DNA of 64,000 nt, taken from Ianthella basta (taxonomy: Eukaryota; Porifera; Demospongiae; Verongiida; Ianthellidae). Position 1 is the first letter of the stretch. Each line of letters opens with the position of its first letter. The position numbers and the translations under genes are program-made. Of this stretch, positions 27,037-62,805 are shown piece after piece. Location: contig OZ025887.1 of NCBI GenBank assembly GCA_964019415.1, positions 3,938,881-4,002,880 on the forward strand. Direction: 5' to 3'. Below the pieces are notes generated by a model, which was given only the letters and a program-made list of their open reading frames with translations, ran no database searches and was not told the DNA's origin.

Positions 27037-27120
27037 ATGGATGTGAAAACTGCTATTGTGGCAAAAGCACTTGAAATTCCCCTATCACTGCTCCCAGAAG
27101 GAATATCTACAGTTCTTCAA
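27037..27120 (+). CDS. exon 1 of the fusion gene
   Basis: Starts at ATG (MDVKTAIVAKALEIPLSLLP) and ends at a strong donor (GTAAGT), phase 0. The reading frame stays open upstream to the acceptor-like CAG at 27015, so the first coding exon could be earlier. The family of this segment is not recognised. Confidence 0.7.
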
Positions 27121-30100: not shown

Positions 30101-33100
30101 ATCCCAGGTGTCCCCAACTATGGAAATTGGTGTGGATGAAGAACCTCATGTACCTCCTACTATGGAGATTGGTGTAGATGCAGTAGAACCCATTACCCTG
30201 CTATCCCAGGTGTCCCCAAATATGAAAATTGGTGTGGATGAAGAACCTCATGTACCTCCTACTATGGAGATTGGTGTAGATGCAGTAGAACCCATTACCC
30301 CACTGTCCGAGGTGTCCCCAACTATGGGATTGGTGTGGATACAGTAGAACCTAGTGTACCTCCTACTTGCTCCACTGAAACGACTCTGCTGTCCCAAGTG
30401 CCCCCAACTATGGACTTCATGTGCAATTGAGTACCACGCAGACAAGCTCCGGAGTGGCAACAAGATGTGGTGCAGTGCTTGATTACTCCTGCTATTGCTG
30501 CATGTTCATATGCCAACCATTGTAAGAGTGCCCCCAACTCACCCCGCCCATGTATATGCTTCCTCAAGCTCACCCCCACAATGTTTTCATTTGTTTAGCC
30601 ACACACAGTCTTTAAGTATACAGGTAATCCACGACGTTCCTTCACTACTATTGTGTGTGTCGGTGTTACCTATGTTTAGTATATTAGCATAGAGGTGTAT
30701 TTATGATTACTGGTAGGCTTTGCATTGTGTGACAACTGTTTGATAGAACCCACCTTTTTGGGACATTTTGAGCTCTGTATCATTGTTACTGAAGCCTAAA
30801 TTGAGCTGCATACCTTGTTTGTGCAAAGTGTCATTCTGCTGACACATCCAGTGTTACTAGCTTAGGGAATGTCATCCCTCAATTGCCAATTGACTTGCAG
30901 TTTTGATACATGCTGTGAGGAATAACTTTAGCTCAAGGGTGGCTATTTTGATTCTTCCAAGGCTTCAAATGACCAGGCTGGGTTTGCGGATGATCAGTTT
31001 AATGTGCCTCAATCCTTCTATTAAACAATGCATGTGTTTAATAACACATTTTGGAAGGAATAAATGATTTTAGAATTACATCTATAGAGATGCAGCACAT
31101 TTGTCAGTCATGCAGTTGATCAGTTTCATGAGGCACATTCTTTGTATTTCACATGCAGAAAGGATACAATTACACTGGAAGCCTGGGAGTTCTCAAAGGC
31201 ACACATGAGGGCACAGATGATGAATGGGAAACTGAAATTGGTGCCATCACAGTTGCCTCTGTTCGCAAAGAGGAGAGGCTCCAGGACATTACTGGACAGT
31301 TTCAAGGCCAAGAGCTGGAATTCCCCTTACATGCAGATGTCAGCCTCACACTGGATGAGCAGAGAGCAGCTGTCAGCAAACTTGTACAACGAATGAATGA
31401 TGACAACCAAACGCATGTTCGCCAGGCTGCTCTAGCGATTTATGCTCTAATGAAGTATGCTGAAAGAAGGTTCGATCCAGAGACTGTTAAGAAAATTTCA
31501 GATTCATTCAGGGGTGCACAAAAGAAGTTCCAACTGGATGCTTTTCTGCAGATGATAGAAGTTCAAGTAATGAGTGTTATCGAGTCTCATGTTCAAATTC
31601 CTGGTGCAGAAAAAGGCTTTGTGTATCCTGCCTTTCAGAAGGGTCTCCCCTTCTATCCAGATCATGGTTACCAAGTGACCCTACAGCTAGCTGAAAGACA
31701 AGTATCTGTGAAGTGTGCAAAAGATCTGTTGGCACTGGTTGAAGCTGTTGATGGTAAGTACTTTGTCAATTGTTACTGTCAGTTAAGAATCTAATATATA
31801 AAGCTGAAATTGTCTGTGTGTGTGTGTTTGCGATATGCGCGCATTTCTTGCTCTATCGACCTCAAACTCGCTGTGGTTGCTGGGGGCATCGGGTGTCAGG
31901 TTATAGCGGGATTGTCGTCGCCCGTCTTGCAGTTCGCAGAGAGTTATCCATCCATTTCCGCTTTTTCCTTCGTGGCTACCGCCATTTTCTAATTATCATT
32001 CCCGTTGATTTCCAATTTTTACTGGACTTGATTGGCTGTCGTCTTACATTCGAATTTAAACCAACAATCATCATTTTGAATTGTAGCAGTATAGCAGATT
32101 TATGCCATCTTGCAACAGGTTCTTAAACTGTGGGTAGCGGTTACCTAGGTTACGAACCAAAATTGTACACAACTATGATGTCACACAGTCCATATCCTAG
32201 GTAACGACTGCCCAAGGATTTGGAACCTGTTGCAAGATTGCGTAAATCCGCTGTAACATGGTTGCTGAGGGGATCCGGGGGAAGATGTTGGGCACGTAGC
32301 TCGCCGAAGGCGGGCCACTCTGCTAGTATATCACAAAGCCATTTTAATACCTAGCTATTAGAATGGTTGCAATCAATCCTTTTCCATATTTCATATTTGT
32401 TGATGTTGAACTTGCCCTTGTGGAAGGTAGATGTTCAGAGTGCAGTGTTCAGTCCCTTTGGGTGATTCAATAGCTAATGAAAAGGGAGTTATTTATTCTT
32501 GGGCAAACAGGTAACAGGTTGATAGATAGACAAGTAAGATGTTTCGACCATGAAGGCTTTACTTGTCTTTCTATCAACCTGTGTTGTCAGTAACTCCCTC
32601 TTAGCTATATGCTCCATAGCAATGAGCCTCTATGACATCATGATTCATATATTATATACTTACCTCATAGTATATAACATACCTTGCCTATTTACTAAAT
32701 ATATATAAGTTCTTTTGTTGAGCATACTTTGTAAAGTGATGTTATGCCCTATTGTCATGGGACCAGGCTGGTTAATTATGGAGTGATATATTCAGGATAT
32801 ATGTTAGATTATCAAAATGTGAGAAAAAAATGGCGGATGGCGGCTACCTGCTGCGCTAGGAGAAACTGATCCGCTAGGATGACCTGCCAGCAATATGGGG
32901 ACGCCAGGATGATTGCGCGCTGATTCGAAGAGTAGGAAAACAGATTTAAGGAGCAAGAGTACGAGTAGGAGTAGGGACGCGAGTGCTAGAGTCAGCGACA
33001 ATGGGGAGAGATGTAGTGAGGAATGGGTCAGATTCGGGGCGTGGAATGTACGGTCTCTAAGAGGCAGAGAGGAGGAGCTGCTTGAGGAAATGGATAAGTA

Positions 33101-36100: not shown

Positions 36101-39100
36101 TAGGGACCATTGATAATGCTTCACTGTGTAGCAACATATACTTGTTTCTGTCCTTTTTATGCCATCCCTACATCCTTACTATTTTTGTAGATAATTATTA
36201 TTAGTTCTAGTCTGAAAGGAACTTGCATGTATGCTCTGCATATTCACTGGCATGTTTATTTTCAGCAACCTGCAGATCAATCAATGCCAAAGCCAATGAC
36301 CCTCCTAGAAATGGCATGACAGTGAATTATGCTGATTTCAATGTGGGATTTGAACCCACAATCTGGAAGCAGATATGTATGGCAACTGGAAAGCCAGTCT
36401 TCCAGCCTCTAGAGGAGGCTATTGAGCTACTGAAACCAGAGAATAATTTTGTTCACCAGAGCAGCAGGCTGACCTACTCTGAGGGTGACATGTGGTTCTA
36501 CCTGAAAGCAGAGAGCAGCCAGTACTGCCAAGAAATGCTTGAGGTAGGAGGGATGCTTAGCTATAAATTTACTAACTTTTGACTGTTCAGTGAAGTTACA
36601 TGTGTTCAGTAATTGAGTACCCTAGATCCAGTTATTTGTAGATGATGAGTTTGCAATAGCTCTGTTTGTGTCAGTGTGTGAACATACATATGCATTTTGT
36701 GTTCATGTGCTCTATGTGTACCCATGCATGTGTGTGCGGTGTGTGTACTGTGTGCTGTGTGCTGTGTGCTTGCCCACACCTGGTTTCATGTGCGCTTACC
36801 TGTGTACTAAGTAAGCTAGCTATCTGTATGTCTAAACCATAGCAGCAGATATCTACCTATCTTAGTAGTTTTCCAAATGTTACTCCTTAATCTCTACTGT
36901 AGTGCTTGCTTTCAAGTTTAGGAATGGGTGTAGCTTCATCTTGTATAATGTGGATCAGGCAGTGCTGTATCTTATATATAATATGGAGTTAAGCCTGAGT
37001 TTCCAAGTTCCATCTTCTTAGGAGCGTTTAGCGTTTTTCAACACACAAACGATGAGTATTCTTATACAGCACTTTGGCCTACCTCCATTCGACTCAACTG
37101 TGAGGCAAAAACAGCCACACGCAGCACCAGTTCAGAGATAATTGGGGAAAACAGTTGTGGTGGCCATGTTTTCTGGATAATGCTGTCATCTTTGCCAAAA
37201 GTTTCCAAGGCAGCGCCAGGTGGCAGTGCAACAGAATGCAATGGTCTAGGAGAAGCTCAGTGTATGGACACCAGCAACCAGCACATAGAAGCCAACCATG
37301 CCCAAGAGACAGGGACGACACTGTCTACAGTCTTGATGATTTGTGCTGCTTGAATCTAGGGGGGACTGCGAGCAACTCCACAGCAAATGTTTAATATCTA
37401 GATGGTCTAAGACTAATTCTGGAGCATTTCTAGGTACATCAAGACCTCAAACACATGCATGTGAACAACAACCTGAATTGTAACCTTTCTGCTGCAGCAG
37501 GAAAATGGCTATCTTGCATGTGACATAGAATTCTGAGCCAATTATGACACACTGTGACAAGATTGTTACAACAATCATACTTACACTAGCAAGAGCTGTG
37601 AATCCAGTGGAGAGGAAAGCAGAACACATATCACAATGCCTATCAACATTATATGCTTTCCAGAAGCAAGCACAGCATACACATAGCACTCGGCACTCGG
37701 TTCTTTGTGCCTTAATGCCTATGTAACAAGCTGCTGGTAAACACGATAAGACGGAGGCGATGTCCAATGGAGCGCTAGCGTCTCAAGGGCATGCGATACA
37801 CGAGACAAGGTTACAGAGCAGTTACCAACTCAAATCCACAACCCAAGGCAAGCACATGTGTGTGTGTACATCCGTTATTATATAATTAAGCTCATGCAGG
37901 TAAATCACATGCCAATAGTATATGTTATGTAATACAATCAATGTTACAACCTCCCCCCTCAGTTCAGCTTCAAGTCCAGCCAAAACGTTGTACAGGCTTC
38001 ACAACTCTGCCACTACGTGTTGTCACGGTGTTACTCTCAGCAGAAGGTGAACTGTTCTCTGGGTGCTCCGAACTCTCCGAATGTTGTTCCATTGGCAAAG
38101 CCAACTCTTCTGGAGTAGTAGTGGCAGATGCCTGATCACGGGTAAGAGTACTGTCAACGGGGTCAACGGAGTTCTCCATCTCTGATGAGGGAGGGCCCTC
38201 CCCCTCAAAGAACAAGGGAGGTGACCAGTCTCCCGGCACCAACTGGTTCCTACTGTCGGCCTCAAGCAGGGGGCGAACTTGATTGACGTGTACCCCTCTT
38301 ACACTGGTCCCCAACTTTAGGAACACAGTGGACGGTTGCTTCAGATTGACAACAGTCAATGGGCCTGTCCAGCGGGGTTCCAACTTGCCCTTGGAAGGAT
38401 TTCTAGTAGGACCGTTTGTCCAATCTGGAGCTTTGTGCATGTTCCTTCTCCAAGGTATGACAGGCAAAGTCGTTCTGCTGACTCCACAATGTTAGCTTCT
38501 ACTATCTCCCTAAGTTCCAAGATCTTGGATCTGAGGTTTGCACTGTACTCAGAGGGCTCTGGAACTACCATTCCTGGCAATCTAGGGACATTCAGTGAAG
38601 GAGGATTAACCCCAAAGAGAACCTTGTATGGTGACAGTCCTGTGGTTGTGTGCTTTGTATTTCTGTACATATACAGGAGAAGCTGAAGATTCTCCTCCCA
38701 ATCACCTTCTTTCTCCGTGTATGAACGCAGCAAGTTCAGGAGAGAGCGATTCATTCGCTCAACCAGGCCATTACCCATGGGATGATAAGGGGTCATTCTT
38801 GACTTCTTGACACCAAAGGCCCCGCACAGATCTGCTAGGATTTTACTCTCAAAGTTTTTTTCCTTGGTCCGAATGGAGCTTTTCTGGAGGTCCTACCAAG
38901 GAGAACACATTGTCCTTCAGGATCCGTACTATTGTGTCTGCCTTTTGATCTGGTAATGCACAGGCAAATGGCCATTTGGAGAAATAGTCCTGGACCACCA
39001 GCACGTATTGATTTCCTCGGCTTGAGACAGGCACCTTGAGGATATCTACAGCCACCATCTCCCATGGCCGGCTGGCCAATACTGGTTGTAATGAAGCAGG

Positions 39101-48100: not shown

Positions 48101-51100
48101 TGCAGAAAACCACTGAAAGGGCGCGCGGGTGAAGGTTGGTTGAAGGATGTCCAGTATACACCCTGGAACAGTCATCTGACCACGTTGTGGAAGTATTAAA
48201 TCGCAAGTGACAGAGAATTCGACGGACCACAGCGTCCAAGAAAGTGTAGTTATGTCACCTTTTTTGCAAGGGGTCCCGGCCACGTGGCAGCATGATGTCA
48301 GCAAAATGGAGGATTCACTGGGTAAGCGTGCGCAGAATGGAAAAGTTACAGCAACAGCGACGTAGACCGTGCAACAATTTCGAAGCTTGTTGCAGGTACG
48401 CGAGATTTTGAGTAGATGAGGGTTGCGCCATTGCGGAAATTGCCCCGCTATGGGCGCGCTGCCAGTCCTGATTGACACATGTGCTGCTGGTTGTTGCTCA
48501 ATGACTGTATTTAAGCAGAGCACATGAATACTCCTCCCTAAATTGCTTTGCATTTGTCTAGATAGGGGCCCACTTTGCTTGCCTCTCTATTAAATATGGA
48601 TGGTGTGAAGTTGGAAATACACATGATCCATATTATAACTGTATGTACTTCTAAACTATACATGGATATGTCCACTCTGGAATATGTGGTGCACGTGAGC
48701 AGTTGGCAACAATGAGATATGCCAGACGTGCACATGACCAGTCAGTGATACTGACATCTGCCTGACGTTGCATCATTAATTTTGGAGAAGGCTTTTAAGG
48801 CGCAACAATGAGGTTGGTTTAACATTGTGCCAATGTTTTGCCAATCAAATCAGTGAAGAATTAATGCATTGTGCGTAAGGTGCATGCCTCATATCTGGCT
48901 CAGACATGCTTTGCATACAAAGTGGAAATAAAGGAACCATAGCCAGCAACATGCACATGTCCCAGGCAACTGTGGACACACTCCAGATGTATGCATTGCT
49001 TGCAAGAAACATTTAGACAGAGATAAGTGGCAAGAACGAGAATAGCCTGTTTGTCAGAGTTAGTCACATTTCATGGGCATACCATAAAATGGTACATCCT
49101 AGCTATGTATGTAGCCTCTGACTTCACATCCTTTAAATTTGCTGCAGTAATTGTGTCTTGCATATACTTATCTCAAGGTATACATCACACATGTAACCAC
49201 TGTAACTGCACATGCATGTCCAATTACTTTGCATGCATTTTCTAACTCCTTGTTGTACATGCACACTCACGCTTGCCCACAATAATGCTTTTCATTATCA
49301 TAGTTTCATAATAAACACATAATGGGGGTACGTACTAGTCTGATAAAGTTGTCTCTTACAGTTACTTGTTCATTGGATTTTGATAGTTGTCCACTTTAGT
49401 GTATTGTATTATTGTCTGAAACACATTTCATTTTCATTGTACAGGGAGTGCAGTTGTACCTAATGAGATTTGCCCTTCTAGCATTTGAAACTTGCCGAAA
49501 ACTGGATCCAAAGAGCACCTTAGCAGGGTAAGCGGATGAACAATGATGAAACCTGCTAAGAATACCTGCTTTGATATCTTTACTTATTGCAGAGATCGGA
49601 AGAACCTGCGAGATATTGCCCACCGAATGCTTAAACTGGCTCTACGTGATGGAGACGTCGACCTAACTTTCCAGTAAGCACATGAAACTAATGTATGTAT
49701 ACACTTGTACTTAACACTGGGTTCAAGGCTAAAACAAGTAATGAGTTTGCAGCCAGTAAACATTTCTTTGACATTTTGTTGGTATGCAAAATGAAGATTC
49801 AATAATATGTTTGATATTTAAGACTGCAAACAGACAGTTATCAAATTACCATAATAAGGCGGCAGTCACTCTACAGTATATAAAATGCATGTCAGCGGTA
49901 AAGGTGACATTCGCGGTGATGTTTACAAAACGTGAACTATCAGTCACACAACTGCAAATGGCTGATGTCATGTTTTACGTAACTAGCTTGTCTAGCTGTT
50001 TTAGCCTCCTGTTCTTTCCAGCAAGATTGAGAATCTCCTTAACATCTTCCAGTATGTGTATTTTTGCCAAGGATGTTTTGCATTGGAGTGCACAGTCCAG
50101 GTCATTTTATGTGGCTACGAACTATGTCTACAATTGGCTAGATAGGTAGATTGCTTCCTTCAACATTAGCCTTCCACTCAGTGCTAGGTTGCTGGTCTCG
50201 TGGCACCATCGCACTCAGTTTTTGCTTCCATATTATTTCCCTATTACTCCTTCAGATTGTGTTTGGTATCGACATAAACACTATCCTTCTACTACAATCA
50301 TATGTTTACAGTTTCTGAATAAGCGGTCTTTTACAAGAAAAATGTCACACTCAACTAACCTAGTAGAATAGCACATATCATTGGTGTGGATAGCATGGTG
50401 CAGAGGCTGAGCATGAAACGGAGCACATAGCACAATACACAATCATGTTCTAACTTTCATGTGAGTGAAGTTTGCAAACTCTACTACTAAGTTAAATCAA
50501 GAAACTACTCCCCCTACTCTTGTTGCAACTTATGCAATTTATAGTTCCACACAGGACATCATAGAACAAACACTAACATGGAAACACTAGAGCACTGTCT
50601 TGGCTTTCAAAATCAACCCTCTCCATGTCTTCATCTTGCAAGACTGCTATCCAATGAATGATTTACTACTAGTGGTAGCCATACTGAACAGCCATTGTCA
50701 TGACAGTCTCTTGACTTTCTGCTGAAATGTCATATTACATTCAAATATAGCCCCAAAAATGACTGTGTATAAGCTCCTTCAAGCTGCATGCATATTGCTG
50801 CAAACAGGAAAACTTATCTTCGCAACTGTTTCAGATTGGAATGACAAGTACAACATTTTTTATAGCTTGGCCTCTCAAATTACATGCACATCACATGCAG
50901 TCATGTGCGTAACCATTGCAACATAGAAGAATGTCCAAGCAGTGGCAGTAAAACATGAATGGGTGGGGGGGTTCTTGGTGGCAGAGCCAATCAGGCCTGT
51001 AGCCACTATTTTCTGGATCAAGGATAGTTGGGGAGCTACAGCCCCCTAACCCCATCCCATTCTGCTGCGCTTGCTTCCAAATGTTGCTCAATGTGGTGTA

Positions 51101-54100
51101 CAGATGGCTTCTGCCTTATCAAACTGTGAAACATGCTCCCAAGGTACTTCTGGTTGATAGGCTTACAGAAACGTAATTTGATAGTATTCAATAGGTCGCC
51201 GACTTATGTAATTCCCATGTAATCGTCAACAATGGTCTACTACCTTGAAGACTTTCAATCTGCTGCCTCAGAGAAGTGACAGGGGCCACGTAGAGAACCC
51301 CTATAATGCGGACACCCTTCAGAACAAGAGAAGTGTCCTGACTGTAGGGGTGTCTGCATTTCAGAGGTATGGCTTATATGCCCACATGTTAAAATAATAA
51401 TGTAGTATGCATGGTAAAGTATCAAAATAAGATGAATTTGTAAAGGTAGAGGTGGTTCACTCGAGTATTCGGCTCATGCACCATTTCTGAAGACGATTCT
51501 AAAGTGTAGCTGTTTGCACTGAACTTTCCCATGTCAAAGACACTTTCAAAACCCTTAGTTTAGACAATTTGTGGCACTCGTCAACTTCTGTGCTATTCCT
51601 GTCACTAGTCAGAGGTAGCGGTGCAAATCAGGGAGTGGCCATTTTCTGGCAGCTGATCGAAATGTCCGGATTATCGGGTGAGGTTTATACAGAGTTGTAT
51701 AGGGCGGTGCACAGGGTGCTGACTGCAATACGGAGTAACGGGGTGTCTGCATTTCAAGGGGAAGTTTATACAGGTAGAATAGGGTCAATCGTTGGGACTT
51801 TAGAAAGTGTCCACATAATCAAGGTGTCCACTTTTCAGGGGTGTCTGCAAGGCGGGGTTCCACTGTATTGTGTGTCATATTGTGTGTGTGTTCTATGTAT
51901 ATGTTGTCCTTAATACACTATAAAAATTTAACATACTATGCCAGGACTATGCCTGTAGCCATTGCCATGGTAGGCTGTAGCTGCAGTCACAATATGCCAA
52001 TAGCTGTAGCTACATCTACATGTAGCCCTCTGAGGTAGCCTGCACCTTGAAAACAAGTGCTTGTGCCAAGTGGGAAAGTGTTTTCACCTAGAGAATGAGC
52101 ACTCACAGCATTGTACATATGTGGGAGTGCCTTGAGAATGAGTGTTCTCACCTCGAAGGGGAGTACCTACACCCTCAGGAGTGCCCACACCCTGAGGGAG
52201 AGTGCTTGCCTTCAAGAGGAGTGTGCGTGCCGTTGAGGAAGATTGCACACACCTTGCACTGCAGACATCTTCCCATCACTGTTTTCCGTGATGCTGCTTC
52301 ATATGGGCACCAAACAAAGACCAGTAGAAAGCCCTTTGAAAGAACTGCACAAGTGTACAGTATGCAATCCATGGCTCATCAATGCATTGTATCGATATCT
52401 TTTGAAAAATTCAGACACCATTTCCTGAGAATCCTCAGAATCAACTTGTGTCAACTTAATGTTCACCGCATACATAATGCATAACACAAACACTGCCCTA
52501 TGTATGCTACTGGTGTGCACAACAGACATTTTATTATCATTCGGTGGTGAAATTATGTGCATGTTTGATGCCAACATCTGCAGTGATGCTGCTCAGATGA
52601 TCTTCAGTATGCACTGCTGCCTGCATCTTGTGGGCCAGCCTGTGTCAGTGGGCAGGTTAGATCAACTGCTCATTGGCTACTATCAAAGAGACCTGAAGGA
52701 GAAGAGGATCACTCCAGAAAGGGTATGACCTGAGTAATCCCCTTTAGCATGACCTAAATGAATTTCTATGTTTGCTGTTACATCCAAGTGCACTTCGATC
52801 TCTCTGACTAGGCCCAGGAAATCATTGATGCCTTCTTCATCAAGTTTGATGAACATGTTCTCCTGAATCGATACAACATTCCTTATGGCCATGTGACATA
52901 TGGCTCTACTGCTGTCACTGGCCGTGGTGGTCCCTTCCCAACTGGTGACTCTCTCAATCAGTGGATTCAACAGGTAAGAATACAAAATTGCACACAGTTA
53001 TTGGCACTGTTCTTATTAATGTTTCTATGACCTACAGGTGACAGTTGGTGGGTATACCCGAGAAGGTGCTGAAGGGTACAATGATGTTACCTTGATGTGC
53101 CTCAAAGCATGCCGCAGGCTTCCGCTGAATGCCCCCTGTGTGTCACTGCGTCTCACAACCAACCCACCAAAACTGGTAGTTGAGGAAGCCGCCAAGGCTC
53201 TGCTGAGTGGAGGAGCCCACCCTATTCTCTACAATGATGACAAGATGGTGGAAGGTCTGTCAATTCTTTGGCTAACTAGAACCATAATTCAAGTGCATAG
53301 TGTATGTTGCCTCTCCCAAACTCATGTTGTATAGGGCTCCATAAGGTACTGTGCTCTTCTTATGACAAGCTGAATTTGCCAGTGCCTCCCAACTTGCTGA
53401 AAGATGCTAGGGACTATTCATGCGATGGTTGCTATGAGCCAATGTTCACGGGAGCAAGTGAATTCAAGTTTGCATATGTTGATCTGCTGAAGGTAGGTAG
53501 ACCATGGGTATGCTATCTAAGAAGGGGATGTTTCACATAGTCAATTCCTTACACTGCATGTACAGGCTGTGATGTATGCACTGAACTCTGGTGGAGATTA
53601 CCAGGCAGCTGGTCCACTGCATTTGGCAGGTGATGCTAGTTCATGGAGGACCCCACTGGCAAAGGATATCACAACATTCAAAGAGTTTCAGGTCAGCTGA
53701 GTGTATACTGTCAAACTAATAGACTGACATACCACCAAGGAAGACTATTGTATGCTGAGTCACAGTAGGCCAAGGTACTCCAATGAGTGTCTTTAAAGAT
53801 ATGTTCATGGAGGCCTCTGAACCAAATCTGGGGTTGGAGCATCACACTAAATATGTATTGATTTTGATCTGGATCAAATCTGGTTTTAACCGAGGCCATC
53901 TCCACTAGTTTACACTGGAATTGATTTGCTGCTGGATGGCAAAGAGCACAAGCATATAGAGAACACAATATACTATATCAAATAGCAACCATACGAAGCA
54001 CGAATGGCAGCAATTTGGCATCTTGGTTCACTAAAAATAACTGATGAAGCTTCACTACCAAGGTGGAGCATTGGTTGAAATAAAGTTCAAACCGTAGCAG

Positions 54101-57100
54101 TGACCAGTTTGAAGAACAATTAAACCAATCCAAGGTCCAGAGAAAATCCAACTGGAAGATGGCAATCATGTGCCATCTTCCAATCATGATTTTTGTGACA
54201 ATGAATGTTAGGGCATGTTTCTTCATTAAGTATTTTAACCTAGGAGATTTCAATGTAGTGTGAACATGGCCAATACACATTTGATCCAGATTCAAGTATG
54301 AACACACTATTTCTGTTGCCATGCATAGCTATGTCACATGTTTCACATAAACATACACAAAGTACTAGGCATCTCATCACCTACAGCTAGACACAAAGCA
54401 GACAGTGTACTGGCCACTCAAGTATTGACAATTCATATTTGTAAAGCAGTGCAAAGAATTCCTACTGGAGAACAATAAAGATTTCTGAACACGTAGTAGA
54501 GATGTTCTGCATTTGAACTATAGCCAGGACACTATATACCTATGTACATGCAATGGTGTGTAGCAAAGAGATAAACAAGTATCATATTTTTAGGACTACT
54601 AGCTGAATGCCTGCCCTTCGGGTGGGTTCTCAGTCTACAGTTGGTAATTTGAGCGTTGAACCAATCAAGACTGTCCATTTGATTGGTAGCATCCGTAGAC
54701 TCGCTCCGTAAAACTCCGTACATACAGAATTTACTCATGTTAATCCATTTTGGGTAAAGGAGTTCAGTGACAAGACGCTACCCACTTTAGGTCACCCCCG
54801 TATTGCCATAATATACTCTTCCAAGTTTGGCGAAGATTGGTGGAAAAGTGAAGGAGGAGTTTCTGGAAAACGAAACACGATCTTTCCCCAATCTCTTAGA
54901 TATGGCGGTGACCATAAAAGTGGCAAGAACTCGGGCAGAACGACCTTAAACCAAATTTCGGCTTGGCGAGGTTACTCACAGTCCCCCTCTTCGTAATCTT
55001 ACCTAGTTTCGTGGCGCTTCGTCCAGAATTGAAGGAGATTATCCCGAACAACGAAAATGTGCGTTACATTTATTATAATAAGATATGGAGCTACACCCTT
55101 GTATATGCAGGGCCATGGCTGCAGGGTTCCAATGTGTAACATCCTTCCTTATTTCTGTACCCCTACATCTCTAACTAATTTATATCTTGAATTCTTTTCT
55201 CTAATAGAAATTCTGCTTTCACTGCTCTCAAGTAGTATACAATAATTCTGTACTGGCTAGTGCATTCCCTGCTTTGCATCTAGCTCTGTGATAATTGCAA
55301 TCTGTCATCTATTGCCATACAGAGAGGGGTACCAGGCTATGACTGCATCGTAAATGACACATTGACATAATGACTTATGAGTAATGTGTGTACTCCATTT
55401 TAACACTTTCTGTGAGCAGGACATCTTTTTGACTCACCTGCGTCTCTTGGTTGAGAACCTGTTTGGATTGATCCTATCATCATACGGTAACCCATGGAAG
55501 ATTTGTCCCTCACCTATGCTGTCCTGTCTGCTGGCCAACTGCTTGGAGCGGGCAACTGATATGACCAATGGAGGGTCAAGGTCAGACATTTCTCACACTT
55601 CTGCAATAATAACAGTTTGCTTTTGTAGTTACCACTCATTGTAAAGAAATAGAAACTTCAACAAACATGGTAAGGATGTAGGGATGGCATTAAAAGGACA
55701 GAAACAAGTAAAGGCTCTTACACAGTGGAGCATTAACCATAGTTCCTACATGCAAGAATGTTGCATCATATAGTCCTACACCCTTGAATGTAATGACGAT
55801 GGTTAATGCTCCACTGTGTAAGAGCCTTTACTTGTTTCTGTCCTTTTATGCCATCCCTACATCCTTACTATTTTGTAGAAAATTTGTATATAGAATCCCA
55901 TCCATGGCATATAATTGTTCTTTGCTGCTGCCATTTGGCTACTTTCGTTGAAGCGTGCTAATACATTAAGATAGGAGTGGCCATTTTTATCGGGCACATT
56001 CCTAAATAGATGTCACGAGCGTGATGTCTGATATACCTCCCTCAAGCTTTGTGGCAAAGACTACAGCCAGCATAGGCTATTGTAATATCTTGACAACCAG
56101 GCAAGCTATGTATCACTTCCATTCATACTATTGTGTGAATAAGGGTGTGCATAGCCATTTCAGTCTTGCCTTTTTGAAACTATAATTATAATGTGCGTCA
56201 CACAGAAAGTTCACACATGTCTATTTCAGTACAATACCCAATGAAGTACCCATGGTGACTGAGGAATATACTCCAAATGTGACACTATGCACTATAACAA
56301 ATGCAATTGCATACCTTAATTAGGTCATACGCAAAGAGTAGTTCTGATGTATTTTCTTTTCAACCAGGTTTCACATCATGGCCCCCATGTATGTTGGGTT
56401 TGCAAACACAGTGAACAGCTTGTACAATGTCAAGCAAATGGTCTTTGATGATGTTGACAATGTTGCCACTCTTGAGACATTGACCATGGCCCTCATTAAC
56501 AACTGGGGACACAGGTAATTTTACAGTATGCAGTTAAGATAAGTTTGTTCTACTGTAAGATGTATATTATAGGTAACACTGAAGTTAGAATGGGATGGAA
56601 AATGGACAGCAGTTTAAGTTCCAATATGATTCTGGGTATTGACTTAGGCATAAACGGTCATCTAAGACTATGTATGTCATGCTATTGCTTTCTCATGACA
56701 TATGACACCATCCCAAGATTGTACTGATACAGTATATCCACTCAACTGAATGTGTAAAGTGTACCTGACAAGGATGAGTTACAAGTGAATGATAGTGAAC
56801 TCTACAGTTACTATGGCTTTGGTCAGTTTGATGTAACCAAGAGTAGTTGCAGATCCAGTCATTCGGTAGACCAAAAGGCTGCTCTACCATTGTGCTTGAT
56901 CTCAGTGATCTTTTCACCTCATTTAAAGAACTTCAGTACCTCACTCAAACTCCACCACCTCCTGTCTTAGATTATAGCAGTGCTCAGTCTAAATTTACAG
57001 TGATGGCGACAGTGAACCATCAGTCACACTGCTTGCATTATGCATGGTATTGTTTGAACCATCAAACCACCATGGCGCTTCAAGCACTATTTCCAATTTC

Positions 57101-59636
57101 ACATGTACACTAGCACTATATGTCTCTCTTGCCCACTGTCTGAGTTTCTTGCTTGGTCTTCAATAGAGATGGCTCTACTGCAATATTTAAGCTTACATAC
57201 AAGTAGAATACTGGTTTACAGAGTCTGACTACTTCAGATTAAGTACAATTCTATGTTGATCTCTTTCACTTGCATGCATGACTGCGAATATAGCATGTGT
57301 GAACCCTTCTTTGACACCACTGGATCTGGTGTGATACTAACGGACATGTTAAAGCAGAAGTTCTTGGATCTTCGTGAGGTTGCCTTACAGCTTCCAAAGT
57401 TTGGCACAGATACTGCAAATGATGAGGTAAGTGCTGAAGGTAATGCTTCACGTGGTCACTGGGTGACATTCATTTTTTGGACACCTGCCCAAATGTAGTT
57501 GAATGCTCTTGCTCTGTGGCTTGCGGAAGAAATGGACACCATCACCCATGATGTACTTTACAATGGACCACTTGCCGCAGTCTATGATGAACTGAGAAGA
57601 AAATTTAGCACTGATGACCATCCATTTGTCTTCCAGGTGAGATACCGGTTATTCTGTTACAAATAGGAACACATGCAGCTACTTGTTTAATAGCCTTCCT
57701 AAATTCTGCAGAATTGCACCTGCTGAGTCTGCATTTGTAGTAATTCTGTCATATTGCTACAGAGACTGCAGGCATATAGGCCTGCCTATTGCTGTACTGT
57801 GACACTGCTATATTAAAACAATTGTTTCAAGCCAAGGATGTGATTTCATATGTCATTTACCACAAAACAGTTAATCTGAAATGTGAGCTGTGTATAAAGA
57901 CATTTCCATAGTATTCTCTCATGCCTATAGTTATGGTAGGGTCAAACTACAAACATGTGAATATAATATTACCTATGTCTGTATACTAGATGCTCACAGA
58001 AGTGATGGTCTACCAGGATATGTCAAATTACACTAGCCACAGTTATAGTGTATTATATTATATAGGTGCTTCAATACAAGATGGTGAATAAAGCACTCCT
58101 ATATTAATACTCTTTTAATTATAAAATGACTGGACATGTTGTCAACATCTAACAAGTGATTGGGGATTATGATTTTTCCCATATATAGCTTATACAAAAT
58201 GCAGGCTATAGAGATAACTGTGTGTTTGCATTACCTGTGCCCACAGGTCATGACAGGAAGTGGCACTTTTGAGAGTTATGTCAGTGTTGGTTCTTCTACT
58301 GGAGCTACACCAGATGGTCGATTGAGTGGCCAGCCAATAGCTTCTGACTGCAGTCCTCAGCCTTTCCCTCAGGTTAAGGCAATATATGATGCATTGTGAA
58401 TGTGCATGTTCTTAAACACTCACCATTGATTCACATTTTAGGATAAACCTGTTCCACACATCCCCCCAGAGAAGCAATTGGATATCATTGACACCCTGAA
58501 ACCCTACAGTGGTTTGAGCAAGTATGCATCTTGTATCTTGTAGACTTTGTTTTGTGGCTGGTTAGAGTTGCTCCAAGTAAATGAGTCCATTTCCTATAGG
58601 TGGAGCTCAAAGCAGTGGTCATCCATGTGTCTGATATGTTAGGTTCAAAACTAGTAATCTGCAAATTCAGACCTGATAAGTTATTGGGTGGAGGTGCACG
58701 TGCACATGTCCAGTTAGTGATTACTGATTGTCAAGTTCAACAGTATGGCTTTGTATGCATTACCCTATGGCTTCTCAACACTACACCATGCATATGGTGG
58801 GCAATGTATACCCAGCAGCTGAAGCACTGAGAAGCGATGAGTTGGCCTATTTGTGGTCATCAAAAGAGTTAGTATAATTTTCCCAACAATCAGGTTGACA
58901 ACCATTGAGATAGTGGAACAGCACGACGCACTTCAGGAATTCATGGCACTGAAGTGTGCAATGATTAGTACACTTAGAGGAATCAAAGTTACACTATGGA
59001 CAGGTAACATGTACTGAAATGTTCCTCAGTCTATTTGCAACAGACATTGCTAGCTAACGCTCTCTGTCTACCCTCTCTCTCTCTGATTGGGCAAGTAGTT
59101 CGAGTTCAGGGGTGCCCCACAAGTTTTTTAATTCAAAATAGTTGTTCCAGTTGCACATAACAGATGTACTACATTGTTGTGCTCCATGATGCAGTGAAAT
59201 ATATAGAGATGTTGTGAATTAATTTAACATTATAATAGTACATTGTCTAAAAATTGTTTCATTAATAGGTTCATTCCCAATGGCTGTGAGGTTGACATCA
59301 GAATCCCTGAGTCGTTTCCTGATAAAGATCTTGAGGAATTCATTGTTGCATTTGCCAAGGTCAGCTTGCAGCATTGTTGTACAAGGGTGTTTTGTCTCAC
59401 AATAAGGCAATACTTATCATTCCCTCACACAGGGCGAGACTGGGAGCAACTTGGTCACTGTAACTTGTGCCGACAACTGGACATATGAGCAGGCTTACAA
59501 TCGCTCCCAGCAGTTTGACTTGGTCCGCAACCGCATGGGGGGCTGGTCAAATTTCTTTGTGGCCATGTTCACAGAGCATCAGAAGCAACACGAGCGTCGG
59601 CCACTATTCCAACCACACAAAAGTGAAGACCACTGA
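27037..59636 (+). CDS. DyP-type peroxidase / glycyl radical enzyme fusion, 24 coding exons
   Basis: Exons: 27037-27120, 31159-31753, 36266-36543, 40979-41127, 46205-46867, 47034-47177, 47258-47324, 47402-47563, 47655-47756, 49445-49527, 49593-49673, 52584-52722, 52812-52973, 53038-53254, 53335-53492, 53566-53691, 55420-55580, 56368-56514, 57294-57426, 57499-57636, 58247-58372, 58442-58521, 59269-59359, 59433-59636. Together they make 4,290 bases, one frame of 1,429 codons plus stop, and every junction phase agrees. Residues 1-180 are unrecognised. About 185-480 are a DyP-type haem peroxidase (DG at 356-357, His432, Arg451). About 655-1429 are a glycyl radical enzyme (Cys1008, Glu1010, Gly1399). 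The active-site form suggests a radical eliminase, not pyruvate formate-lyase; the substrate is unknown. There is no signal peptide or membrane segment, so it is probably cytosolic. The start is the first ATG of exon 1, but an acceptor-like site precedes it, so an upstream exon is possible. Confidence 0.88.
27696..28272 (+). mobile_element. pogo/Tigger-like non-autonomous element, copy 1 (intron 1)
   Basis: 577 bp from TACAGTGGAACCCCGCC to its imperfect complement GGGGTTCCACTGTA, with TA at both ends as expected for a Tc1/mariner-type target duplication. Inside are repeated GCGGACAC and GTGGACAC phrases. No transposase remains. A second copy of identical length lies at 51291-51867 in the opposite orientation. 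Confidence 0.8.
28448..29314 (+). mobile_element. pogo-like DNA transposon relic with transposase N-terminus (intron 1)
   Basis: The ends are imperfect inverted repeats: TACCATATAGTACAAATTTT at the left, and AAATTTGTACGTATACGGTA at the right. Inside, plus-strand frames at 28621-28820 and 28770-29060 (one frameshift apart) give a helix-turn-helix-like N-terminal domain (TFPSLKESTVCGWKNAY, then WPEKHRERPG). This resembles the DNA-binding part of pogo/CENP-B-type transposases. The DDE catalytic domain is missing, so it is a deletion derivative. Confidence 0.65.
29315..31158. other. rest of intron 1
   Basis: Apart from the minisatellite I see nothing recognisable here. Confidence 0.5.
29937..30350 (+). 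repeat. 102-bp minisatellite with an open frame (intron 1)
   Basis: GTAGAACCCATTACCC recurs at 30081, 30183 and 30285. Inside each unit a sub-repeat (CCAACTATGGAGATTGG) occurs about twice. Both lengths are multiples of 3, so a 136-codon frame stays open (VEPITLLSQVSPTMEIGVDE repeated). No family is recognised; it lies in intron 1. Confidence 0.85.
31159..31753 (+). CDS. exon 2: N-terminal domain and start of the DyP domain
   Basis: 198 codons from acceptor ATGCAG to donor GTAAGT, phase 1 at its end. The first ~150 residues (GYNYTGSLGVLKGTHEG; then a helical, charged part with MKYAERRFDPETVKKI) match nothing I know. The end (GYQVTLQLAERQVSVKCAKDLLALV) has the strand-helix pattern of the first ferredoxin-like half of a DyP peroxidase. 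Confidence 0.8.
31790..32326 (+). mobile_element. non-autonomous Helitron (intron 2)
   Basis: Starts with TCTAATATATAAAGCTGAA followed by a TG-repeat stretch, a classic Helitron 5' end. It ends with a short hairpin (TCGCCGAAGGCGGG) a few bases before CTAG. It is flanked by A on the left and T on the right, as expected for insertion between A and T. There is no Rep/helicase ORF. A palindrome lies inside at 32100-32260. Confidence 0.85.
32100..32260. repeat. imperfect palindrome nested in the Helitron
   Basis: TTGCAACAGGTTC and GGTTACCTAGG on the left face CCTAGGTAACG and GGAACCTGTTGCAA on the right; probably a small foldback element carried by the Helitron. Confidence 0.7.
32515..32582. repeat. 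hairpin repeat in intron 2
   Basis: GGTTGATAGATAGACAAGTAA is followed about 25 bases later by TTACTTGTCTTTCTATCAACC, an almost perfect inverted repeat. Confidence 0.75.
32814..35925 (+). mobile_element. RTE-like LINE, near full length, with 15-bp target duplication (intron 2)
   Basis: Identical 15-bp direct repeats (ATATGTTAGATTATC) at 32799-32813 and 35926-35940 bracket a 3,112-bp insert. The insert ends in (ATTG)n and encodes an endonuclease-RT. A single ORF with EEP endonuclease and RT plus a short tandem tail suits RTE-like elements. The insert has the same orientation as the host gene. The clean duplication argues for a fairly recent insertion although the ORF is broken. Confidence 0.9.
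32913..35812 (+). pseudogene. endonuclease-reverse transcriptase of the RTE-like LINE
   Basis: Frames 32913-33431, 33437-33655, 33667-35232 and 35348-35812 are parts of one protein. The endonuclease shows FGAWNVRSLRG, ILGVSETKM, VIQVYAPMED, VLGDLNARVG and GSDHYLL. The RT shows EWREAIIIPIYKKG, EQGGFRAGRGCIDQVF, FVDLEKAYDSV, VRQGCPLSPWLFNIFID and the catalytic ILFADDLVML. The C-terminal part has GCEAKALQ and RVLRWIEGVSRLERIRN. At least three frame breaks disable it. Confidence 0.85.
35941..36265. other. 3' end of intron 2 with a partial hairpin-MITE copy
   Basis: Sequence at about 36078-36190 (ATTCTTGCATGTAGGGACCAT, then TGCCATCCCTACATCCTTAC) is one arm of the MITE that is complete at 55670-55869. 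Confidence 0.7.
36266..36543 (+). CDS. exon 3: DyP N-terminal half
   Basis: Encodes NGMTVNYADFNVGFEPTIW, MATGKPVFQPLEEAI and SEGDMWFYLKAESSQYCQEM. These align in order with the VGFG...W, PxxLxPFP and GDLLxxI blocks of P-type DyP peroxidases (YfeX-like). Enters in phase 1 and leaves in phase 0. Confidence 0.82.
36544..37721. other. 5' part of intron 3
   Basis: A TGTGTGC-rich microsatellite lies at 36725-36770. Otherwise I see nothing recognisable. Confidence 0.5.
37722..37948 (-). repeat. LTR of the Gypsy-like element
   Basis: On the plus strand it runs from TGTAACAAG to CAATGTTACA, giving the TG...CA ends and short inverted repeat of an LTR. It is directly preceded on the minus strand by a polypurine tract (GAGGGGGGAGGT, 37949-37960). 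Confidence 0.75.
37970..40546 (-). pseudogene. Gypsy-like pol: RT, RNase H, integrase
   Basis: The long frame 40546-38849 begins inside RT (FSKIDLRSAYWQFPM; catalytic YVDDFIVFSD). It continues through RNase H (FILTTDASDVGLGAVL, DHKPLLWL, NADALSRKP), the H2C2 integrase finger (HEEAGHQGSDRT...CRICVKC) and the integrase core (VAVDILKV, LHSDQG). A shift at an A-run near 38857-38863 moves the rest to 38796-38356 (HPMGNGLVERMNRSL) and a further shift to 38467-37970, which ends in an integrase tail (RWTGPLTVVN). The DDE residues are all present but split by the shift. The N-terminal RT is truncated. Confidence 0.85.
40979..41127 (+). CDS. exon 4: DyP catalytic DG motif
   Basis: Encodes GRVLGGMFLDGIGSAVD, the counterpart of the DyP GFxDGT segment; Asp356 is the expected distal acid for peroxide cleavage. 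Spacing in the motif is one residue off the usual GxxDG. Ends in phase 2. Confidence 0.8.
41420..42431. mobile_element. ~1-kb element with TACATATAGTA ends (intron 4)
   Basis: TACATATAGTACGGT at the left end matches the complement of ACCATACTATATGTA at the right end, and the same motif occurs once more inside at 41549-41563. The left 150 bp folds back on itself (41420-41567). The inside (41580-42300) is CpG-richer than its surroundings and contains short frames (one starting MTGCCTEGLENASILAEHR at 41857) with no known family. It is non-autonomous; the class is unknown. Confidence 0.5.
42887..43072 (+). repeat. LINE-tail remnant and partial hairpin MITE (intron 4)
   Basis: (TGAT)n-like run at 42887-42904, followed at 42955-43065 by one arm of the MITE found complete at 55670-55869 (GGTTAATGCTCCACTGTGTA, GCCATCCCTACATCCTTAC). 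Confidence 0.65.
43175..45800 (+). mobile_element. second RTE-like LINE, heavily decayed (intron 4)
   Basis: Conceptual pieces on the plus strand line up in order with the element at 32814-35925: GAWNFRSL near 43200, a middle region at 44090-44362 (EIESKDGSMLTEKNEIKYIWREYFSE), FIDLEKA near 44680, an ARL-type segment at 44750-44830 (RLEGSIEALYKESKACVRVDGE), FVDDTVVMAL near 44975 and a (TTGA)n tail at 45780-45800. Stops and frameshifts are frequent throughout, so it is much older than the intron 2 copy. Confidence 0.75.
46205..46867 (+). CDS. exon 5: DyP haem-binding half and linker
   Basis: The largest exon, 221 codons. GATFAFTQFFDFDLEALD and QMIGRDVYGDTIP match the DyP block around the 'IGR' motif. 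ERSHIKRARV holds the proximal haem ligand His432, LLRQALPYA holds the distal Arg451, and KGLFFVAFGKSIATFFEILS is the closing DyP strand-helix. From about residue 480 on (CLLYCPSALELNLQ, FARWQSTW) it is a linker of unknown fold. Confidence 0.85.
47034..47756 (+). CDS. exons 6-9: linker and start of the glycyl radical domain
   Basis: Four short exons (47034-47177, 47258-47324, 47402-47563, 47655-47756) separated by introns of 77-91 bp. DPKELIVGVTDRLSFGSG, EAGNMGHIVPGHEIMLTK and VTGILNTLKCK match the N-terminal block of PFL-family radical enzymes (ELIVGN..., GHxVPDYE..., GxxGI). The intron after exon 7 starts with GC, a GC-AG intron. Confidence 0.82.
48040..48245 (-). repeat. CpG-rich dispersed repeat, copy 2 (intron 9)
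   Basis: Reverse-complement relative of 23050-23260 (see there). It explains a 172-codon minus-strand frame at 48553-48035, which shows no protein family and is probably not coding. Confidence 0.6.
49445..49673 (+). CDS. exons 10-11: glycyl radical domain
   Basis: 49445-49527 and 49593-49673, split by a 65-bp intron. Encodes GVQLYLMRFALLAFETCRKL and RKNLRDIAHRMLKLALRDGDVDLTF, which match the helical block before the TFxEA segment of radical enzymes. Confidence 0.8.
49674..51290. other. 5' part of intron 11
   Basis: No feature recognised. An acceptor- and donor-bounded open segment at 50022-50101 was considered as an exon and rejected on phase. Confidence 0.4.
51291..51867 (-). mobile_element. 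pogo/Tigger-like non-autonomous element, copy 2 (intron 11)
   Basis: 577 bp, reverse complement of the copy at 27696-28272. The end GGCGGGGTTCCACTGTA is well kept and the other end (TAGAGAACCCCTATAATGCG) is diverged. Confidence 0.8.
52090..52255 (+). repeat. degenerate GAGTG-type tandem repeat (intron 11)
   Basis: Phrases such as GAGTGCCCACACCCTGAGG, GAGTGCTTGCC and GAGTGTGCGTGCCGTTGAGG recur about every 25-33 bases. Confidence 0.6.
52584..52973 (+). CDS. exons 12-13: glycyl radical barrel
   Basis: 52584-52722 and 52812-52973. HLVGQPVSVGRLDQLLIGYY is a highly conserved block of the family (SxGRxDQxLxPYY). It is followed by AQEIIDAFFIKFDEH and TGRGGPFPTGDSLNQWIQQ. Phase 2 at entry agrees with exon 11. 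Confidence 0.88.
53038..53254 (+). CDS. exon 14: glycyl radical barrel
   Basis: VTVGGYTREGAEGYNDVTLMCL is the family block before the active site (xxxGGxxxxGxDxxNxLTxLxL). It is followed by APCVSLRLTTNPPKLVVEEA and GGAHPILYNDDKMVE, again typical. Confidence 0.9.
53335..53492 (+). CDS. exon 15: catalytic cysteine loop
   Basis: Encodes ARDYSCDGCYEPMFTGASEF. Cys1008 (codon 53430-53432) is the thiyl-radical residue and Glu1010 the general base, in the GCxEP form seen in radical eliminases. The neighbouring cysteine of pyruvate formate-lyase is absent (Gly1007 precedes Cys1008). Another Cys (1005) lies three residues upstream. Confidence 0.9.
53566..53691 (+). CDS. exon 16: glycyl radical barrel
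   Basis: VMYALNSGG and GPLHLAGDASSW follow the catalytic loop as in other family members (xxLxNG....G). Phase 0 at both ends. Confidence 0.85.
53692..54598. other. 5' part of intron 16
   Basis: No gene, RNA or clear repeat seen. Confidence 0.4.
54599..55083 (-). mobile_element. non-autonomous Helitron, minus orientation (intron 16)
   Basis: On the minus strand it starts TCTTATTATAATAAATG and ends with a hairpin (ACCCGAAGGGC) about 10 bases before CTAG. Flanks are A and T in the expected order. The body differs from the Helitron at 31790, so it is another family. Confidence 0.8.
55420..57636 (+). CDS. exons 17-20: glycyl radical domain, helical part
   Basis: 55420-55580, 56368-56514, 57294-57426 and 57499-57636. 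FHIMAPMYVGFANTVNSLYNVKQMV matches the conserved block where family members read xGxxxxADSLAAIKxxVF. LETLTMALINNWGH and LNALALWLAEEMDTIT correspond to later helices. The exon 19 acceptor (TATAG at 57289-57293) is chosen by phase; exon 19 is the least certain of the four. Confidence 0.8.
55670..55869. mobile_element. 200-bp hairpin MITE, complete (intron 17)
   Basis: Left arm GTAAGGATGTAGGGATGGCA...TGGAGCATTAACCAT is the near-perfect complement of the right arm ATGGTTAATGCTCCACTGTG...TGCCATCCCTACATCCTTAC, with arms of about 80 bases. Single or degraded copies lie at 36078-36190, 42955-43065 and 60050-60175. Confidence 0.85.
58247..58521 (+). CDS. exons 21-22: conserved substrate-loop region
   Basis: 58247-58372 and 58442-58521. 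YVSVGSSTGATPDGRLSGQP is the near-invariant 'G..TGATPDGRxxGxPxADG' block of glycyl radical eliminases. SDCSPQP follows in the place of 'ADGxSP'. Ends in phase 2, matching the exon at 59269 directly. Confidence 0.9.
59269..59636 (+). CDS. exons 23-24: C-terminal glycyl radical loop
   Basis: 59269-59359 and 59433-59636. FIPNGCEVDIRI matches the NG...N.xF strand; NLVTVTCADNWTYEQAYN and FDLVRNRMGGWSNFF are the family C-terminus. Gly1399 is the radical-bearing residue, in RMGGW where many relatives have RVSGY or RVAGY. Thirty residues follow it, ending at TGA 59634-59636. Confidence 0.9.
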
Positions 59637-60954: not shown

Positions 60955-62805
60955 GGGTGGCTCTGTTTGAGGCGTGTTGCGAGCATGGTATTGTGCCTTC
61001 CTTGTGGAGAGAGAGTATTGTTGCTCCAGTGCCCAAGAAGCAAAAAGGGGAGTGTGTGATGTGCACACTTTCTGGGGCACTACTTTGACTTCTCTAGTCA
61101 GCAAGGTGTTATACAAGATACTTGAAAACAGACTGTCTTGTATGGCGGAAGAGAAGGGTCTAATAGCAGAAGAACAGGGTGATTTCCGTAAAGGGAGGGG
61201 ATGTAGGGACCATCTACTGTCTCTGGTGTTATTAGGTCAAACAGAGTTGGTTAAGAAACCTGACGGTATGCTAGTAGCATTCATTGACTTTACTAAGGCC
61301 TATGATAAGGTGAATCGGGAGAAGCTTTGGGTGTGAAGTGCAGGTGTCTGCGGTTTATACAGGCTCTGTATGAAGGAAGTGTGTGCAGAGTGAAAGTGGA
61401 AGGTCAGGTCAGTGGAGATTTTGAGGTGAACTCTGGTCTACGACAGGGATGTGTCTTATCCCCACTGCTCTTCTCGTTGTACATTAACGGTGTTGTTAAG
61501 AGGTTGAAGGAGGAGAAATGTGGAGTGGAATGTGGTGGTGAGACCATTACTGGTCTGCTGTTTGCAGATGATATGTGCTTGGTAGCCTCAGAGGCATTGG
61601 GGCTGAAGAAGAGTTTGGATGTACTGGTGGAGTGGTGTATGGAATGGGGAGTGAAGATTAACGTGATGAAGTCTGGGATTATGCACATCCGCAGGAAGAA
61701 GGCAGAAAGAAGTCATGTGTCATATATGTTGGATGGAGAGACAATTCCAATGGTCTCTTCATACAAGTACTTAGGAAGTGTTGTGGATGAGTTTCTGGAG
61801 CTGAAAGAGATGGTGAAGGACAAAACAGAGGCAGGGAGAAGAGCTCTGGGTGCTTGTTTTCAGAGATGTCGGGCAGAGATGGGTGATGTTACAGTTGGGA
61901 TTTTCAGGAAGCTGATGGAATCTCTAGTGGAGTCAGTCATGATGTATGAAGCAGAGATATGGGGCTGCAGTAGGCACTTGGTATCCATTGAGCAAGTCCA
62001 GCTGTGTGCTCTCAGAATCTTTTTTGGAGTAGGCACACTTCACCCCAAGGCGTCCTTATTGCTAGAAATCAACTCACTACCTGTTGTGTGGGAGGCAGAG
62101 ATGTGCTGTGTGAAATTCAGGTTGAAGGTGTTGACTAGCAGGTGTGGCAATGGAGTCTGGATAAGGAACAAGGCTGACTTTGAGTTGCAGAGTGTGGGAG
62201 GAGATGCAATTGCGAACCTAACTGATTCAGAGATTGGAGCTATGTTGTCTTGTGCTGCATAGAGAAAGGCGAGGAGCATACTGATGAAGGAAGTGGAGGA
62301 GACACCAAAGCTGAGGATGATGAAGTCAAGCTGCGCAATGGTGAAGAGGAAGAAAGAGAGGACAATGTTGATGAAGCTGAGAGGGGGAACAGCACCATTT
62401 CAGATAGAGGTTGCAATTGGAAGGTGGCAAGGAGTGAACAGGGAGGAGAGAGTATGCATAGAATGCCTGGGACCACCTCAGGCAGCCTTTGATGACAGAA
62501 GCCAACCGTTGGGATAGATTTAAAGAGCAGAGTCATAGTGAACAGACTGCCATTGTACTGTCTCTAGCATGTGCTGATCCTAGTATTCTAAAGCATCTTA
62601 GCTCTATGTGGTGTGCCCATTTTGGTGTGTAAGCACATGCTTTTTTGTCCACGTTCCCAACTGTGTTCCTTTTTCTCCTGTTGAACTATCCCTTGTAGCT
62701 ATTCTTGTGTTCTAGTACTGCATTGGACCTTTTGTGTCCTAGCACCATTTGGTGCGGTGCACTCTATTAATAATAATGATTGATTGATGATTGATTGATT
62801 GCTGT
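60955..62805 (+). mobile_element. 5'-truncated CR1-like LINE inserted in the satellite
   Basis: The satellite sequence ...GGACTATTGCT at its left resumes as ATTGCTGTACAT at its right, so ATTGCT is a likely target duplication. The insert ends in a (TGATTGAT)n-type tail at 62775-62805. It begins inside the RT region, with ORF2 upstream parts missing, which is the usual form of a truncated LINE insertion. Confidence 0.85.
60970..62517 (+). pseudogene. reverse transcriptase of the truncated LINE
   Basis: Frames 60974-61336, 61327-62262 and 62284-62517 follow one another. Motifs: EEQGDFRKGRGCRDHLLSLV, FIDFTKAYDKVNREKLW, LRQGCVLSPLLFSLYINGVV, catalytic LLFADDMCLVA, then YKYLGSVVDE, RKLMESLVESVMMYEAEIWG and VGTLHPKASLL. 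The C-terminal piece (MKLRGGTAPFQIEVAIGRW...CIEC) matches the 6-10 kb LINE, so both belong to one family. Two frame breaks; otherwise well kept. Confidence 0.85.

Follow-up and report, generated by a model that had tools for sequence, protein, structure and literature searches.

A sponge gene joining a DyP-type haem peroxidase to a glycyl radical enzyme belongs to a widespread fusion family whose bacterial genomes mostly lack a recognised activase

The sponge Ianthella basta carries a gene whose predicted product joins a DyP-type haem peroxidase to a glycyl radical enzyme (GRE). The gene lies at 27037..59636 (+) of a 64,000-nucleotide stretch of the genome assembly (GCA_964019415.1, contig OZ025887.1, positions 3,938,881 to 4,002,880 of the forward strand), referred to here as the window. 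The same fusion recurs in bacteria, fungi and other animals, and a recognised PFL-type activase was missing from most of the fusion-bearing bacterial genomes tested. We propose self-activation, in which the haem domain, fed with peroxide, would itself make the radical of the GRE half, and we give this reading a probability of about 0.4. Slightly less probable is the fuller proposal that a haem peroxidase domain installs the GRE radical from H2O2 by a radical-SAM-independent and oxygen-compatible route, which would be widespread in bacteria and have been carried into fungi and animals.

The 24 exons joined into one open frame of 1,429 residues plus a stop, with GT-AG borders at 22 of the 23 introns and GC-AG at the remaining one, after exon 7. 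The rebuilt exons placed Asp356, His432, Arg451, Cys1008, Glu1010 and Gly1399 in a single frame, as a sequence-only reading of the window had claimed. Exons and profiles both agreed with its view that the locus is one animal gene, rich in introns, in which a complete GRE barrel follows a DyP-type peroxidase. Exons 3-24 were alignable to relatives, with 74-100% of cells filled. The aligned relatives had no counterpart of exon 1 or of the opening ~145 residues of exon 2 (31159-31597, +), so the start codon and the N-terminal extension, residues 1 to ~175, are unproven and we treat them as provisional. Six-frame searches of the I. basta genome found each half of the fusion once, with no second copy of either. 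The assembly gave 34 Wnt matches compared to 0 in 14 prokaryote controls, which indicates that the genome is an animal's. Together with the fused relatives and the position of the gene within a 6.65 Mb contig, this upholds the earlier judgement that bacterial contamination is unlikely.

In profile searches, the I. basta protein matched the Pfam models PFL-like at 4e-82 (residues 692-1228) and Dyp_perox_C at 1.4e-14 (residues 373-519), and the NCBIfam Dyp superfamily model at 1.1e-28 (100.4 bits, just under the cut-off of 100.5). The earlier expectation that profiles would recognise both halves was borne out by PFL-like and Dyp_perox_C, but PF01228 (Gly_radical) gave no match on this protein. 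The same model scored above its cut-off in four bacterial fusion frames (22.3-26.5 bits) and below it in others. The family profile aligned the Gly loop to RVAGY/RVAGW of solved GREs. Both halves matched solved structures by sequence, in agreement with the confident predicted fold of a bacterial relative; with this fold, GRE chains made up the best 50 Foldseek matches throughout, and the DyP match was obtained with VIA-align. The I. basta protein has the fold, proximal His432, distal Asp356 and distal Arg451 of the DyP superfamily, the barrel, catalytic Cys1008 and C-terminal radical Gly1399 loop of the GRE superfamily, and the Glu two residues after Cys and upstream active-site His of GRE eliminases of the diol dehydratase type. 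We read it as an N-terminal extension, a putatively haem-binding DyP-type peroxidase and a complete eliminase-type GRE barrel.

Conservation was scored over 246 rows (the I. basta protein, 194 proteins and 51 loci, with duplicates kept). In the DyP half, the haem-ligand His was present in 246/246 rows and the distal Arg in 238/246, while Asp or Glu occupied position 356 in 236/246. His703 and Glu1010 of the GRE half were found in all 246 rows, Cys1008 in 245, and Gly1399 and the Trp next to it in 244 each. The linker carried Trp586 in every row and Trp590 in 99.6% of rows. The two Gly1399 exceptions were P0087, a shrimp protein with a garbled C-terminus, and L041, in which the frame breaks before the loop. 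Such strong conservation of the full GRE residue set argues that the barrel performs radical chemistry. The L041 frame (L041:8001-11393), from a Candidatus Albibeggiatoa bin, also has Tyr for the catalytic Cys besides the lost Gly loop, and is a case of either decay or assembly error.

Both Pfam domains were present in all 120 relatives listed (the best 120 of 213). By record name, fused relatives came from Branchiostoma, Patiria, Macrobrachium and Halocaridina (amphioxus, sea star and shrimps) and from ascomycetes; bacterial fusion loci came from Bacteroidota, Myxococcota, Actinomycetota, Cyanobacteriota, Pseudomonadota and others. When a bacterial GRE half alone was the query, 113 of the 120 matches listed (of 483) were fused. 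The other seven rows, without a DyP domain, were considered as standalone GRE relatives, a reading that was rejected since they look truncated. The animal entries (Branchiostoma, for example P0044 and P0046, Patiria miniata LOC119729731 or P0037, Macrobrachium rosenbergii P0030, Halocaridina rubra P0087) combine a DyP with a PFL-like domain in a single protein and are 37-38% identical to the I. basta protein, which differs from them in its additional ~175-residue N-terminal extension and its very long branch. In a tree of 81 rows, built by a quick method that warned of long branches and odd composition, eight animal rows formed one clade (99 on the support scale of that method). The I. basta row, on a branch of 1.35, was not securely placed, so a single animal acquisition is not proven. 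The 13 fungi formed another clade (99, same scale), next to which stood eight rows, most of them betaproteobacterial, in line with the transfer put forward in PMC5041501. The family is mostly bacterial and was probably acquired by animals and fungi.

The architecture is not new, since it stands in these animal database entries and has been in print since 2016, when PMC5041501 described a 'DyP-PFL' fusion whose role was not known from Chaetomium cochliodes and other genomes, with the same domain order and families as in I. basta. The claim of the sequence-only reading that the layout was undescribed in animals is not supported. That article reports the fusion from distantly related prokaryotes and eukaryotes and calls its significance elusive; Deuterostomia and Mollusca are named in the legend of its tree of the DyP superfamily, with fusion status unstated.

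For 46 of the 57 fusion loci, the whole genome was searched with the curated PFL-activase models TIGR02493 and TIGR02494 and with Gly_radical and PFL-like, each of which scored over its cut-off in 3 of 14 well-known genomes used as controls. A PFL-type radical-SAM activase exceeded the curated cut-off in five of the 46 genomes (G005, G006, G008, G025, G039). An ordinary PFL-like GRE was confined to the same five, lying at most 3.2 kb from an activase in each and scoring >500 bits compared to 193-384 for each genome's best fusion match (Fisher p for the co-occurrence 7e-7, uncorrected for kinship). In the remaining 41 genomes (25 are isolates according to their titles), the fusion was present but no PFL-type activase exceeded the cut-off; 17 of the 46 are bins, and curated cut-offs miss divergent activases. 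Among the 57 loci (mean 17 kb), the canonical activase motif occurred in one, from a genome with an ordinary PFL beside that activase, and other CX3CX2C frames, of differing motif types, in three.

In the I. basta genome, TIGR02494 gave no match in an exon-wise search, which can miss split genes, and TIGR02493 gave only a 16.8-bit stretch crossing a stop; no activase was found. Given this result and the rarity of the activase among the bacterial genomes (5/46), we did not file the fusion as a canonical activase-dependent PFL-like GRE system. The general Radical_SAM model picked up exons best matching lipoyl synthase and MiaB-type enzymes. Two long-frame radical-SAM genes were also seen in this genome, L086 (G000:C9:7148740-7149150) and L087 (G000:C1:12666743-12667252). 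Their best NCBIfam matches were bacterial, tungsten-maturase-like and KedN5-like B12, both far below cut-offs, and the two genes are possible further bacterial acquisitions.

Under self-activation, Compound I would form when H2O2 or a peracid oxidises the DyP haem. Protein side chains would pass the oxidising equivalent on to the barrel, with the conserved linker tryptophans as candidate carriers, and a Gly1399 radical or a Cys1008 thiyl radical would be made there directly. The barrel radical would then start elimination on a small polar substrate. With the DyP domain standing in for the radical-SAM activase, a GRE-type reaction could run in aerobic cells, and the fusion would be an oxygen-age counterpart of the activase-dependent enzymes. 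The haem peroxidase is the sole constant partner in the same chain, and peroxide-made ferryl haem would be the most economical oxidant. The C-H bond of a glycyl residue, the O-H bond of tyrosine and the S-H bond of a thiol are similar in strength, which makes the radical-transfer step thermodynamically reasonable, and many of the hosts (for example the genera Massilia, Corallococcus and Saccharopolyspora) are presumably aerobic. In class I ribonucleotide reductase, an oxygen-dependent metal radical generator feeds the Cys of a related barrel, and class III relies on a Gly radical made by an activase. The proposed scheme would work like class I, a comparison that claims no kinship; unlike the fusion, class I has two subunits and a diiron-tyrosyl cofactor.

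Compared to GRE eliminases (glycerol and 1,2-propanediol dehydratases, choline TMA-lyase and PflD), to which identity was 20-25%, the fusion has an extra DyP domain and mostly lacks the usual activase. The Asp that follows Cys-x-Glu in glycerol dehydratase, which has a role in that enzyme, was not conserved in the family profile alignment, and the substrate is therefore probably neither glycerol nor propanediol. The flanks of the fusion gene held a PF04185-type phosphoesterase in 9/57 loci, a DUF2608 gene in 7/57 and a PLD-like gene in 3/57, or 14/57 loci together, as counted by sequence cluster with ten neighbour proteins Pfam-scanned (two each of phosphoesterase and DUF2608). These genes hint weakly at a phosphoester-derived substrate and are too patchy for a substrate to be named from them. 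A ~420-residue gene with a signal-peptide-like start followed the fusion gene at L005:11391-12647, L006:11290-12600 and L036:11660-12943; the proteins of L005 and L036 had no Pfam match at E 0.01.

Several observations weigh against self-activation. The strongest in print is the putative PFL activase that PMC5041501 reports in the Chaetomium genome; this protein may be an enzyme of the AmmeMemoRadiSam type. Below the cut-offs, TIGR02494 matched at E <= 0.001 in 37/46 genomes and TIGR02493 at E <= 1e-12 in 22/46. Three ~60-bit matches from three genomes (L063, L066, L068), considered as hidden activases, were rejected as AmmeMemoRadiSam proteins (TIGR04337, >630 bits), and an ~80-bit match (L085) was NrdG2, which genome G038 has. 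Since the sub-cut-off matches identified number four, a divergent activase among the others is conceivable. NrdG-type activases were left out of the activase count. Further Gly_radical proteins that are not PFL-like occurred at G030:C3:119575-119889 and G039:C162:49707-50021; our guess is that they are probably anaerobic ribonucleotide reductases with their own activase. In I. basta itself, a split activase gene can escape a search made one exon at a time, and position 400 is Leu compared to Trp in 98.8% of rows. Retention of the Gly would also be unneeded if the haem fed the Cys directly.

The DyP half supplies a further objection of this kind. In eight of the 246 rows (L008, L009, L010, L024, L044, P0064, P0088, P0174) His takes the place of the distal Asp, and Gly, Asn, Pro or Ser that of the Arg, with the GRE residues and proximal His kept; in a ninth row, P0073, the distal Asp is likewise His but the Arg is unchanged. 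The fusion differs from DypB/YfeX/DtpB-group peroxidases in this double loss as well as in being joined to a GRE barrel, and the replaced rows indicate that not every family member uses the peroxide chemistry of ordinary DyPs. The five locus rows, with Gly or Ser for the Arg, formed one clade (97) in the 81-row tree, from which P0064, P0088 and P0174 were absent. This clade takes in a Scalindua bin and a Desulfobacca bin, which we take to be from anaerobic groups, and the oxidant of its five proteins may be other than peroxide.

The best-surviving alternative, which we regard as possible though less favoured, is that a radical-SAM enzyme, either shared with other systems or unrecognised by current profiles, activates the GRE half as usual, with the DyP domain removing peroxide near the radical or helping to repair it. 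Characterised GREs do use radical-SAM activases, and the sub-cut-off matches described above, of which the three scanned AmmeMemoRadiSam proteins resemble PFL activase at ~60 bits, speak for it together with the putative fungal activase. However, the loci had no recurrent radical-SAM gene near the fusion, the genomes with a curated activase over the cut-off all had an ordinary PFL-like GRE of their own, and a peroxidase gives a glycyl radical no protection from O2 itself. The earlier idea of built-in radical protection is possible on these grounds, but we rank it below self-activation because the activase was missing in 41/46 bacterial genomes and not found in the I. basta genome. Expression of the Chaetomium fusion gene rises 3-fold with H2O2 and 18.5-fold with peroxyacetic acid (PMC5041501, section 17), which is compatible with self-activation and shielding alike.

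We consider it unlikely that the two domains catalyse consecutive steps of one pathway, fused for channelling, with the DyP domain, for example, oxidising or cleaving the GRE product or preparing the GRE substrate. Both active sites are conserved and the phosphoesterase, DUF2608 and PLD-like neighbours hint at a phosphoester-derived substrate, but these neighbours are not common across the family, the missing activase is left unexplained, and we know of no pathway pairing DyP and GRE chemistries. Slightly less likely again is a GRE half that serves as a repurposed scaffold without radical chemistry, the peroxidase alone being catalytic. The lack of a PFL-type activase over the cut-off in most genomes and the unmatched PF01228 in I. 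basta would fit such a scaffold, but loss of the radical reaction would release constraint on Cys, Glu, His and Gly, which are kept in nearly all rows across bacteria, fungi and animals. An artefact, in which two adjoining genes, a pseudogene or bacterial contamination are read as one, is very improbable and was rejected. In its favour are the length of the first four introns (4.0-5.1 kb), the transposon-like frames within introns 2 and 3 and the lack of relatives for residues 1 to ~175, but the 24 exons contain zero stops, exons 3-24 align to relatives fused in one frame, bacterial ones included, the genome with its Wnt genes is an animal's, and the gene lies inside the 6.65 Mb contig.

Table 1. 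Exons of the I. basta fusion gene in the window, with the residues that they encode.
Exon	Position	Strand	Residues	Features
1	27037..27120	+	1-28	putative start; covered by no relative
2	31159..31753	+	29-227	N-terminal extension to ~175, then DyP domain start
3	36266..36543	+	227-319	DyP domain, N-terminal half
4	40979..41127	+	320-369	distal Asp356 motif GMFLDG
5	46205..46867	+	369-590	DyP C-terminal half, haem-ligand His432, Arg451; linker Trp586, Trp590
6	47034..47177	+	590-638	GRE domain begins
7	47258..47324	+	638-660	donor GC instead of GT
8	47402..47563	+	661-714	invariant active-site His703
9	47655..47756	+	715-748	
10	49445..49527	+	749-776	
11	49593..49673	+	776-803	
12	52584..52722	+	803-849	
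13	52812..52973	+	850-903	
14	53038..53254	+	904-976	
15	53335..53492	+	976-1028	catalytic Cys1008 and Glu1010 (DGCYEP)
16	53566..53691	+	1029-1070	
17	55420..55580	+	1071-1124	
18	56368..56514	+	1124-1173	
19	57294..57426	+	1173-1217	
20	57499..57636	+	1218-1263	
21	58247..58372	+	1264-1305	
22	58442..58521	+	1306-1332	
23	59269..59359	+	1332-1362	
24	59433..59636	+	1363-1429 + stop	radical loop R-M-G-Gly1399-W

Besides the exons, the window contains several long frames that resemble mobile-element proteins by their motifs. One inside intron 2 (33610-35232, +) and two outside the gene (6361-7476, -, and 61309-62262, +) resemble non-LTR reverse transcriptases, and a 580-residue frame inside intron 3 (38849-40591, -) resembles part of a gypsy-type polyprotein.

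As far as the literature searched extends, the activase analysis and its consequence are new. One of the papers found, PMC5041501, describes the fusion, and we found no proposal of haem activation of a GRE in the titles and abstract openings searched. Section 17 of PMC5041501, on the fungal protein, contains no proposal of a peroxidase-made radical, and term searches of PMC4420034 and PMC8230527 found none of the words 'formate', 'glycyl' and 'PFL'.

GREs are taught as anaerobic enzymes dependent on oxygen-sensitive radical-SAM activases. A conserved peroxidase-fused family of bacteria, fungi and animals, with its GRE residues intact and mostly lacking a recognised activase in the bacterial genomes tested, permits a direct test of whether peroxide and haem yield a glycyl or thiyl radical. 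If they do, there would be a second way to start GRE chemistry, paralleling the split between class I and class III ribonucleotide reductases, aerobic radical biocatalysts would come within reach, and animals would have an unstudied radical enzyme.
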